Assembly (NCBI GenBank): GCA_034687125.1
Contig: JAQGBZ010000003.1
Coordinates: forward strand, 434,001 to 498,000
DNA: 64,000 nucleotides
DNA from: Neelides folsomi
Lineage: Eukaryota; Arthropoda; Collembola; Neelipleona; Neelidae
Reading direction: 5' to 3'
Below the pieces are notes generated by a model. The model was not told where the DNA came from and made no database searches. It saw only the letters and a list, made by a program, of their open reading frames with translations. Of the stretch, positions 6,801 to 58,595 are shown one piece after another. Position numbers and translations under genes: made by a program. How positions within the stretch are numbered: position 1 is the first letter of the stretch; the number at the start of each line of letters is the position of its first letter.

Positions 6801-9800
6801 TTTCAATTTTATCCGAGCACCTTCGAAGGACTGCGTGAAGCTAATTTGAGAGTTGATCCGCGTTGCATGTTCATCCTTTGCTTAAATTGAAATTTACTCC
6901 TCTTCACGTCATTCCGTAGTGGAGGATGAGTGGAAAATATTTCCCTGCCTCAGCAAAGAAGTGGATGAGATAATGGAAGGGAATCAGGCCACTAGTCAAT
7001 TAATTTTTCTATTTCCAATCTTCTTATCTCAAAGGGATATAGCTTGACCCTAAAAGATTTTTATTAACATTTTATTGATTCTTTTTTATTTCCTTCGGAT
7101 GCATATTTGTAAGATATTTGTTTCAAGATAAAGGCAAAAATTGAACATTTTATAATATTACTTATATAAAATGTCTAAAGAGGAATTTGAAAAAAATCTC
7201 ATCTGATATTTGATTCCAAGATTTAAATCATTTTGAAGCAATTTATTTACTCATTTTTTGACACTAATGTTCCATAAAGGTATATTATTTATTGTAATGA
7301 TCTCAGTTTTGAAGTACGGTATTTTGCAAATTGTATTTTTTCTTGGAAAGTGTTTTTTAGTTATTACTTTAGTTTGTTCTGTGAAGATGTAAAATTGGAA
7401 AGTTGAAAAGTTGAGTAGGAGAAATATTCTTTTTGGATGTCGGTGGCTGGAGGTTTAAACTCTTTAAATTCGTTTTCGTGAGGGAGTGGAGAAGAGCTGT
7501 GAATCCGAACACGAACCTCTTGAATCATCTCCGTTGGATATTTTCCCCGCATTACACCCCAACTAAACCTCTTATGAGGAGGAACTCCTTTCACTTTTAT
7601 TACCCCTCTTTAATATTAAAGACATATGGACCTAAGCTCATCTTCCATAGTTGTGAGCTTGAGCCGAAATCCTCATTTTCTCTTATTGACGGCGAGAAAG
7701 TGCCGAGTATCCGCATCTTGGCCAACTTAAGCATTAGTAGGTATAGTAGGGACCCTGTAGTTAAAAGTTCCTAGGAAATTAATTTTTAAGCCGCTCAAAA
7801 TTCCCCATTCCGGCTTAATTACGTATTTATACCTAATATCCTCATATCTCACAATAATGACTTTTGGAATATTTGCTTTTAGGAAAAGAGAAAAATAATT
7901 GAGAAATACGGATTAGGATCTTTGGTGAAGTTTTTAGAAAATTAACATTAAATATTTATACGGAAGTAATTGAATCTGGAGCTTAATTCTTTTAGCAAAG
8001 TTAAAGAAGCAGTGTTGATTTAAAATTCATGTTTATAAACTGTATTAGCTAAGGTTCATATGGGAAGAGTGTTTTGGGTAATCCTCGTTGGTTCCTACGT
8101 CTTGAGGGCGATTAGGGATTTGTGTTCGGGGTCGATGATGTAATACGCGGCCTCTTCACGAGAACGTTAAGGCGGAGAGATTGAAGGTGCGGCAGTTCAC
8201 TTTAACGTTACGATCCGCCGTTCGGTTCAACAGGAGCGAAGTGCACTATACGGGTGTTGGTGTGGCTTCAACAAGTCGCTGTTTCCTCTTTTCCCGAGCC
8301 GAATTTCAGTTGAGCCGCGACGGCCTCTCCGACCACTTGGGTCCAACTCGCATTGAGAGACGCCTCGATACATTATAAATGGAAGTTCTTACGCCCCTTT
8401 TAAGCTCCCATTTCACGAACGAAAGACAGGTGAAATATGCAAATGTAATTGAATATTTCCCCTCATAATATTTACAAGTCTTTGTGAATTTTCTTTAAGA
8501 GGTTCGCCCTTCCGACTCTTCAAAACTCTTTTTATTTAAATTGTGTACAGTTCCACTTGAGTTGTCGAGAAGAGGGCTTTTAGGTGAATTAGACTTAAAA
8601 GTCTTCTCAATATATAACTATTACTTGCTCTCTTTAAACAGGAGGAGTGTGTCAACGGAGGACATAAAACCCCCTTTTTAACTTTACATTTCTCTTATAA
8701 ACTTTATGAAACTCGGGGTTTGAACACAGTCTGACACTCTCGCCGTGTGTGATGGTGTGGTGATGAAGAATTGGAGAAATTTTCAATTCGTTTTGTGACG
8801 GTTTCTAAAGTTGAATTTCTTGTTCCTCCTCCTCATTTGACATTCAGCTAGTGGTATTAAGAACAAAAGTTTTTCCTTAATTTCTCCTCTTTCGCAGTAG
8901 ACCTTCGGAAGGAGAGATGGTTAAAGTGAAAAGTTCAGTTTTTCCTATTTAATTCTTGGATTTCATTTCAGTCCTCTCAGAATAATTTTTTAAGGGTCTT
9001 CTTTTGTAAACTTTCATATTTATTATAACTTACCAACTCCTCTAAGCTTAATATAAAATACATACATTAGAATTTCATTGTGCTGACATTGCCGTTTTAT
9101 TATATCAAAAATATACAAATATAGGCTCAACATACTAAAAGAGACATCTGATTAATAAAAACTTGCATCCTAGATTTAAACTTTGCAACATTTATTTGCA
9201 AAGTTTTTTTCAAATTAGAGAACCCCACATGTACATAAAGAGCAAAGAAGAAGGTCAGAAAAGAGAAAAGTTGGAATATATGAAAGAAGTTGCCATACGG
9301 TTGAAATTTTACCTTTCTTCGAATCCACACGAACCAACATTGTGAGAGTTCCAAGAACGACAGTTTGCTTGAACTGTACCCAATTCCTGATTTTAACATT
9401 GAAACATATGAGAGGATGTGAGGGGATTTTATTCAAATTTGAGGAATGTCGCCGGCTCCTCTTTGGATTAAGCAAAATAAAAGTTTTCTAGTTCATATTA
9501 GAATGCAGACACCTTCACACGCACTACTTATTTATTTGCCCAAGGGAGAGACATTAGAATATTTCATTCGAGTGAATTAAATACATCTCCTTCTTAAATC
9601 CCCTTCTTAATATTTACATATTATTATTAAAAAAGTGAAATTGAAAAAGTTGGACAAATATCTCGTGACATTTAACATTATCAAACGTCGAAATCGGATC
9701 CTGAGTATTTTGACATCCTATTGTGATTTAACATTCCTTCATGCGAATTTTTGATTTCGTGACAAAATAATTGTTACAAATTTTGATAACTGATAATATT

Positions 9801-13848: not shown

Positions 13849-49681
<35,833 letters not shown>

Positions 49682-49960
49682 CGCCGTCCCGCCCGCTCGT
49701 CCTCCCTTGTTCATCAGAGTCAATCAGAAGAGTCGCTGTCATCCTCTGACGACTCGGCGGCTTCCGTCGTTCTCACCTCCGCCCGCCCCCACACTGCTCC
49801 TGCCTCCGTGGGGAGATGTGTAGAAGAAGGGCAACCCCAAGCTTCCTCTTCCGCCTCGCTGAGGCCGCCGGAAGGAAGGCGGAACTCAAGAGGGAGGTCC
49901 GCTTCCCCCTCCATTTACAGGCGGGTTGTGAGTAAAATGCGCAGTCTTTGGAAACGGTGA
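49682..49960 (+). other. dnc: In-frame open extension after the dunce stop codon (possible readthrough)
   Basis: Directly after the TGA at 49679-49681 the same frame stays open for 92 codons and ends at a second TGA at 49958. The next base after the first stop is C, the context most often associated with leaky UGA in insects. The extension is very GC-rich, like the last exon and unlike the AT-rich DNA beyond 50000. It encodes a Ser-rich acidic part (SQSEESLSSSDDSAAS) and a basic tail (SASPSIYRRVVSKMRSLWKR). Other frames and the minus strand are also partly open here, as expected in GC-rich DNA, so a plain 3'UTR remains possible. Confidence 0.45.
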
Positions 49961-52900
49961 CGACGATCGACGAGCAGGGCAAACGTAAATATACGGAATA
50001 ATTATTATAATGGATATCAACCCATATACTCAAACTCTCTTCTCATCAATTCATCTTCGGATTCTTTACTAAACAGAACGTTGTTTTTTACCATATATTA
50101 TATAAATTGTATAAATATAATTATTGATATGTAAATCATTTATTATTATGAGGCTTCTTGGAAAAACGCGTTTAGCTCTAAATATAATGGATTTTCCTTT
50201 ACACAATATAAACAAAATTCTATACATGATATATTCTCGTAGGCTTAATTCTCCCTATATGACTTTCTTGTAGAGATAAAACAGTGTTCTAATAATTGTT
50301 GTATTAGCAATGTCGAATTATCAATAGTTTGACTTAGGGAGGCCAAATTATAAAAATGTCTAAAATTGTCCTTGAATCGAATCCATTTATAAAGGCAAAC
50401 GAAGAAGTCCTCGTTGTTTGAATGTGTAGACTGTTTTAGGGAGAGAATAATTAAAACTGTGTACCTTATTCGCGTATAGAAAATCGAACCTTGTACCTTC
50501 ATATATGGATTAGAATTACTAAAGATTTTAGATATTGAAGGTTACAAAAATAAGCCTAATATGTATGATAACATGCGTTGGTAAAACTGAAATATTTTAA
50601 GAATTTAACTAATTAAATAAATCCTCATTAGACCATTAGATATGTTATGTAATCTCTATAAATTGAGATTTAAAACTAAAGTGTAAATATTTAAATAGAC
50701 TTTAGATATTAGAAATACCTAATATTATAAGTAATGTATAAACTGGAATGATATGCGAGAGTTGAGAATATATGGAAAATTATAATTGATTATTTTTAGT
50801 TATTGAAGAATTCTCTTTTAATATAATTGAGGGAATAATGGGTACGCGTACGAATTTAACTGTATCTTAATTATTCAGATTCAATTTAAATTTTTTTCAT
50901 TTTTGACGAGTTTATATTGTAATTGATTTTTATTTTGTTTTTCCATTTACTCTATACCATTTATTCGGGTTCTTTAATAACGACTGTAAACGTCAAGCTT
51001 ACAATTAATCAACAGTCTTAAGAATTATTCATTTCCCTAGTTGGCTTGCTAAACCTGCTATTCGAGGTTAAACTAACGAGGAAGGAATAGACCTTATTAT
51101 TTTAAAATGAAAAGCATTTATTTTGTAAATAATTTTTTAATAGGGTGCGGTGTAGCAATTACTTAATTGATTTATCTCATAGGATGATTTGCCAAGCCAG
51201 TTGCAGGCGACTGGTCTTGGACTTTAATATTAAATATAGTTATAAATATTATAATTGTAGTTTTAATGAAAACAAATGCATGTTTTTGTCCCTGTTTAAT
51301 CTTTCATTTTACTTGTTCTTTCAATGAACTCCCATTATGTAATTTATTAATTTCTCAAGTTATTATGTTTGTTTGTTCGTGATTTGTGTGAGAAGAGTCA
51401 AACTAATGTACTGTTAGATTCTATTTATCCAGACTATTTTTAAAATATAACAATTCTATTCAATCATTAGTGTAATAATGAATTTAAACATTAAGGAGGT
51501 TTAACACATTCATTCATATTGTGCCACTCGCCCTTAATCATTTTATAAAAGTCTTTATAACCGTTTTGAATGAGATTTGAAAATGAGATGTGTGAAGCTT
51601 CGTTCGGGAATTATATTATACATTGGAATTGTGTAAACAGATATTTGTGGAATAATTGAATATTTAATATTATTGTTTTGGCCTGTACTCCTAAAGTAAG
51701 TAAACGAAGAGTGCGAATTGAATTTAAAATTATTATTAATTCAGATTTCCTTTAAAACCGTTAAAATTGAATGTTCTTCAAAATATAGCAAATGCTTTAT
51801 CTTTTACAATGCGCAATTGTTAAACATTATAACTTCAACTAACTACCTTAAATACACCTACTTAATAAAGAGACTTTGTAAAGAGTAAAAAACAACTAGA
51901 AATATGAGAAGAAAAAATTGGAAATTCCAAACAAGCCAACTTGGAATTAGATGTTTATGTTACACATATTTTTTGTTAATGCTATGTACAAGTCTCATAT
52001 TTGTTAAAAGTGGGTTGTAAATTTTTGAGTACATTAATCATATTTTAAAGCTAAAGTGAATAATTGTGACGAAGCCTTGGTATGGAAAGAAAGCGTGTAC
52101 ACATCAAATTCTGTAATCTGAGCCAAAAAAGTCTGTATTCAACAAAAAAGTATCTAACGATCTTGATATTTATATTGGATGACACCAATTTCATTTTGAA
52201 TGTATTAAATATATGAAATGTATAGTGAATTATATAAATATAGCTATATATGAAAATAGACTCTAAAAGTTCTATTATATGATAAAAATCGAGCTGCTAA
52301 TTGGATATTTACCTAATCACTTCGGAACGCTATAAAACTATAATGCTACTCCTTGTTCTATCAAATTAAAAATATATGCTAATTTAAGAAAATTAAAGCA
52401 AATTAATAATTATAGTATAGCAATGTTCAAGAAAAATGTAAAATTATGAAATAATTAATTAGATTCATTACAAATGTATGGGTCAAAGATTAGGAGTTGC
52501 CAGAAATTGTAGAAGTGGGTTGAATGAACTTCTGACAAAGCTTAATGTTTAATTGTATTAATTACTAAAATTCAAAGAGTGAAGGAAAATTACATGATTA
52601 GTATTATAAAATCAACAAAAACTGTTTTCTAAATTAAAGAAGTACTAAAATAATTAAACTTTGTCCCTTTTATAAATCGATGAATCGTATCTATTTAATG
52701 TATAAAAAGTAAATTACGTCCCTGTTTAGATTTACGTTAAAGGCTAAGGGTTACATCAAGGGAAAAGATTTAATGATTTGAAAAGGGATTAAGAAAAGGA
52801 TTAAGAAAATCCTATTACCGAAATGGAAAGTCCTGCTATAAAGCTCTAGGTATGAAAGACTTGGTAATAATGACTGGAATTAGGGTTGAGAAAACATCCT

Positions 52901-55936: not shown

Positions 55937-58595
<2,659 letters not shown>

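Follow-up and report, generated by a model that had tools for sequence, protein, structure and literature searches.

In insect learning, the gene dunce controls the level of cAMP, and in Drosophila its product presumably carries a low-complexity tail after the FQVTLEE block, a tail that we take to be reached without readthrough. Stop codon readthrough in insects was surveyed by Jungreis et al. (2016; PMC5100048), the main text of which reports that readthrough is abundant in most insects tested, that Tribolium and Apis lie under the threshold for abundant readthrough, that no tested species outside Pancrustacea reached this threshold, and that RNA structure 3' of the stop is optional, being found in 9-10% of readthrough candidates. 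A search of the literature for dunce or PDE4 readthrough yielded one paper, PMC3786989, which concerns another gene, and neither dunce nor dnc occurs in the main texts of PMC5100048, PMC3840789 and PMC13170385, supplementary lists aside.

In the window (the whole stretch of 64,000 nucleotides that was analysed), the last six exons of dunce lie on the plus strand and join into one open frame (47350-49681), the sole stop of which is the TGA at 49679-49681. The first of these exons (47350-47513, ERELMKTF...SPALE) is where the Pfam PDEase_I domain starts; taken alone, this exon gave an E value of 1.3e-4 and 22.2 bits, below the Pfam cut-off of 24.8. Three exons with GT-AG introns follow (47588-47687, 47842-47996 and 48846-48968), then an exon that matched PDEase_I (PF00233) with an E value of 8.4e-21 (49075-49257), and then the last exon (49352-49681), which is the end of ORF1 including the stop and has strong period-3. 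In the PDB, the last exon matched PDE4 chains (best E 1.3e-25), 43 of the 45 sequences being named PDE4A-4D and the remaining 2 just 'Phosphodiesterase'. ORF1 has the PDEase_I catalytic domain and PDE4 as its nearest solved relative, and the assignment of the gene to dunce/PDE4 in the earlier note was borne out by both Pfam and the PDB. Two PDE4D sequences align to residues 1-104 of the 109 in the last exon, and ORF1 extends to the acidic TLEE block and stops five residues beyond it. The PDE4D chains in the PDB continue for about 26 residues past the match before they end, in agreement with the earlier statement that vertebrate PDE4 has a tail beyond this point.

Queried by itself, the tail of ORF1 matched nothing in the PDB, and a search with 24 residues of it returned ten designed proteins, which are irrelevant. 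The acceptor of the last exon (49320-49351) consists of an A-tract, AAAAAAAAATGTAG, and lacks a pyrimidine tract; on a simple scale it scored -5.24, the lowest of the five acceptors examined. Elsewhere in the window, exons at 55937-57582 on the minus strand were judged by eye from the open reading frames to encode an ER chaperone of the Hsp70 type with a C-terminal KDEL (BiP/GRP78), and three more phosphodiesterase-like matches in this genome (C144, C130 and C368; loci L002-L004) possibly belong to other PDE families.

The base after the dunce TGA (49679-49681) is C, and the same frame then stays open for 92 codons (49682-49957, plus strand) up to a second TGA (49958-49960), again followed by C, past which the frame continues into AT-rich DNA; all of this had been described before and was confirmed. 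We consider minority readthrough at the first TGA-C to be the best explanation of this second, Ser/Arg-rich open frame, the candidate extension, with a probability of about 0.38. A longer dunce protein is possible, and from the open frame, the stop context, the GC-rich block and the period-3 dinucleotide structure we infer that the extension may be translated, perhaps at a low level and perhaps with a function. In our judgement, low-level readthrough ranks barely above a 3' UTR that is ordinary but rich in GC, and both rank above splicing and above a recent nonsense change or an error of assembly.

If the stop leaks, most ribosomes would terminate at the TGA-C and produce the usual dunce PDE4, whole through the catalytic domain and the acidic IQFQITLEE block, and a minority would read the leaky TGA as an amino acid, which lengthens the protein by 92 residues. 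The added tail would consist of a Ser-rich acidic stretch and then a basic tail, perhaps ending in an amphipathic helix, and it could change phosphorylation, membrane binding or partner binding in a small pool of PDE4.

Chemosensory Pfam matches above cut-off in the 75-Mb genome comprised at least three to 7tm_6, at least two to PBP_GOBP and six to OS-D, and we take 7tm_6 and PBP_GOBP to be insect families. The very few odorant-receptor (at least three) and odorant-binding (at least two) matches in a genome of 75 Mb hint that this is an insect whose olfaction is reduced. With regard to RNA structure, four stretches of 60-120 nt after the stop showed no folding advantage over shuffles (z 0.04 to 1.06), folding of 309 nt gave a z of -1.05 with 14 of 100 shuffles equally stable, and the sequence CAGCAGCA was looked for and was absent. 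The dunce stop has the leaky context, TGA then C, and the earlier description of this context agrees with the main text of Jungreis et al., in which TGA-C is favoured among fly and mosquito readthrough candidates and is called leakage-increasing (PMC5100048). Readthrough is favoured here, by a very small margin, because the chemosensory gene families are of insect type, readthrough is abundant in most of the insects tested and TGA-C is preferred there, and a missing stem is usual among the candidates described in that text. Selenocysteine insertion through a SECIS, or the action of another known RNA element, was rejected, as no Rfam match up to E 1 was found on either strand of 49300-51800.

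The chief rival is usual termination, with the block as the start of a GC-rich 3' UTR and its open frame due to chance and composition, which we regard as a serious possibility short of an even chance. The open length of the extension is unremarkable and chance-expected: frame 0 was open in 0.163 of 5000 dinucleotide shuffles, so that 16% of shuffles are open anyway, as a 3' UTR would have it, and at least one of the three forward frames was open in 0.42 of them. In the extension, stops interrupt each of the six frames except frame 0, which speaks for translation.

The GC content of the block tells against an ordinary 3' UTR. Over the 276 nt after the stop it was 0.616 at dunce, the first in rank of 22 stops (dunce included) picked by codon score in 314 kb of genome rather than from annotation, some of which may be exon ends and not gene ends; the other 21 never exceeded 0.402, and the median was 0.30. 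The GC of the block is beyond chance expectation and unusual among the stops compared. It is not that of coding DNA, as the earlier note had it, the block having 62% compared with 45-53% in the six dunce exons. The sharp end at AT-rich DNA, also claimed before, was found in so far as a drop exists, but it sits beyond the second stop by about 25 nt, near 49985. The GC-rich remainder (49961-49985, plus strand) has a GC of 0.64, greater than that of the corresponding stretch after any of the other 21 stops (maximum 0.48), and the failure of the second stop to bound the block favours a 3' UTR. Just two other places in the 314 kb have 276-nt windows with a GC of at least 0.59, one inside a 148-codon open frame and the other judged by eye to be Gly-rich coding sequence on the minus strand. 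Fifteen of 27 other islands with a GC of at least 0.53 had a single-base period-3 power below 1.4, in a count that treats overlapping rows separately and includes some islands resembling real exons. Three GC-rich islands of the window (0.54-0.56; 8076-8398, 20270-20597 and 21593-21899), in this AT-rich genome, are without period-3 or amino-acid phase structure. The occurrence of GC islands without codon structure in this genome (three tested) is a further point for a 3' UTR.

Single-base period-3 was missing from the extension, again as expected of a 3' UTR: its power was 0.67 compared with a shuffle mean of 0.70 (p 0.44), whereas all six dunce exons were significant (p 0.035 or less), and just 2 of 50 coding segments were as low. 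When the extension peptide was recoded with the codon usage of the genome, the expected power was 2.8 compared with the 0.67 observed. The fraction of 2000 simulations as low as the observed value was 0.0005 with genome usage and 0.004 with dunce usage, and 0.12 with GC-biased and 0.25 with uniform synonymous choice, both of which allow the observed value. The GC3 of the extension (0.61) far exceeds the coding level of the genome (0.51 in dunce exons, 0.37 in long frames). Mononucleotide Fourier analysis taken alone pointed to a non-coding extension; it is weak for a Ser/Arg-rich sequence because Ser and Arg codons vary at all three positions.

The frame-0 codon score of the extension (-0.42) was below the 2nd percentile (-0.27) of 50 coding segments, with other frames equal or better, and in the comparison of 22 stops frame 0 was third among six frames. 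The codon score of the extension falls among those of open shuffles, a fraction of 0.63 of 300 reaching it, which is consistent with a 3' UTR. With a GC-adjusted score, 2 of 79 coding segments were as low as the extension in a first version, used for stop-free comparisons only, and 9 of 79 in a corrected version, in which frame 0 was the best forward frame and two minus frames (with 3 and 4 stops) were higher.

Dinucleotide period-3 argues in the opposite direction, for translation and against a 3' UTR. In the extension its z was 3.3 (p 0.005, uncorrected, as one of several successive statistics), with p values of 0.10 in the first half and 0.004 in the second, where most of the signal lies, and period 3 was the strongest among periods 2-8. 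Values as high as this were reached by 1 of 120 non-coding segments, drawn at random where long frames are absent. They were also reached by 2 of 29 segments that are rich in GC and lie outside frames of 110 codons, one of the 2 overlapping a 107-codon frame picked as coding by codon score; 30 of 76 coding segments were no higher than the extension and 46 were above it. Amino-acid composition differed from that of shuffles (p <0.05) in four of the six frames, including frame 0, which was not the strongest, and 18 frame tests on the three GC islands revealed no such deviation (lowest p 0.097). Under a codon model of disorder type, frame 0 of the extension ranked first of six, yet with a negative score (-6.0). 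Its halves scored -2.2 and -3.7, another frame winning in the second. Among 51 real disorder-type windows of the same length, the true frame ranked first in 42, and the 5th percentile was -2.4, a value near those of the two halves. Three GC islands scored -29 to -16 in frame 0, but in two of them individual minus frames (-4.5, -1.7 and -0.3) outscored the extension.

Taken together, the coding signature of the extension is faint, uneven and intermediate between coding and non-coding; the coding character proposed for it earlier is upheld by dinucleotide period-3 but not by single-base period-3, codon usage or codon score. An intermediate signature fits readthrough regions as the main text of Jungreis et al. 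describes them, and it fits a decaying tail too.

The acidic Ser-rich block and basic tail that the earlier note had pointed out, chosen by eye before the shuffle test, are unusual features of the peptide, being equalled in 0 and 1, respectively, of 1000 shuffles that stay open, and in 0 and 10 of 1000 when the halves were shuffled apart. The extension has 23 Ser residues compared with a shuffle mean of 12.9 (p 0.001). Its last 16 codons (SIYRRVVSKMRSLWKR, 49910-49957, plus strand) could form a basic amphipathic helix, with a hydrophobic moment of 0.664 over 16 residues; for this segment, picked post hoc, p was 0.019 against DNA shuffles and 0.047 against peptide shuffles, and for 11-residue windows it was 0.196 and 0.263, respectively. 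The 92 residues matched zero PDB chains up to E 10, and a Pfam match to DUF5435 (E 0.0058, 16.7 bits compared with a cut-off of 27) was rejected as low complexity.

A second rival, which we find doubtful, is that the block is a former coding tail, the TGA stemming from a recent nonsense change or from an assembly or sequencing error, and the tail being constitutive in relatives or decaying. The intermediate coding signature is that expected of a decaying tail, the PDE4D chains run beyond this point, and Jungreis et al. (2016; PMC5100048) treat recent nonsense changes and sequencing errors as false sources of readthrough signals, the former being excluded and the latter subtracted. However, a freshly cut tail should match the adjacent upstream tail of ORF1, the GC3 of which is 0.42 compared with 0.61 in the extension, and a single copy was found in the assembly, so that there is no second haplotype to compare. 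No relative was found in genome_contigs or viral_contigs, neither of which is an arthropod collection.

Alternative splicing that takes out the TGA is in our view unlikely. Two tracts on the plus strand resemble 3' splice sites, one at 49698-49717 with a CAG end at 49717 that is in phase 0 relative to the extension, and the other at 49901-49920 with a CAG end at 49920. Both have an ad hoc score of 5.88, above the five real dunce acceptors examined (best 4.98); such acceptor-like sites number just 0.047 per kb in the window, and two or more of them were found in 0.0007, and one or more in 0.05, of 3000 shuffles. The first could be joined to a real donor, from 49258 to 49717 in phase 0, and the second could end a frame-preserving intron of 243 nt at 49678-49920, after which a short tail, RVVSKMRSLWKR, would remain; both joins are open through to the second stop. 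Against splicing, the join from 49258 to 49717 truncates the catalytic domain at its end, the site at 49678 is a weak donor (-1.33), and the candidate intron has 63% GC compared with 17-46% in five real introns. Furthermore, Ser/Pro codons are enough to produce pyrimidine tracts, and the acceptor score and its threshold are ad hoc and were fixed after the sites were seen. A GTGAGT donor motif is present inside the extension at 49928-49933, soon after the 49920 tract, and scores 1.95 because of its poor exon side.

Antisense coding was rejected, as every minus frame of the block is interrupted (1-4 stops), and so was a duplicated or repeat-derived block, as there is one match only in the genome, by protein and by DNA.

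If minority readthrough occurs at the dunce TGA-C, there would be a second isoform with another C-terminus, overlooked by gene annotation, and readthrough would touch a central signalling enzyme. If the stop does not leak, the locus is an example of how far one can be misled by an open frame and its GC content where the genome is rich in AT. It seems improbable to us that the TGA-C is a conserved programmed switch for a fraction of dunce PDE4. Were it so, regulated readthrough would add a phosphorylation block rich in Ser and a basic, amphipathic helix that binds membranes, translation fidelity would determine the site of cAMP degradation in neurons, and the second TGA-C may be leaky too.

Compared with the insect readthrough genes that Jungreis et al. 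(2016; PMC5100048) describe, which are Drosophila and Anopheles candidates, dunce is alike in its TGA-C, its multi-exon structure, its intermediate downstream coding signature and its insect-type host, whereas it differs in being without a stem and without CAGCAGCA and in being known here from a single genome sequence. Compared with the vertebrate PDE4D tail, the candidate dunce extension would likewise continue past an acidic LEE-type block, but the PDE4D tail lies in the main frame.
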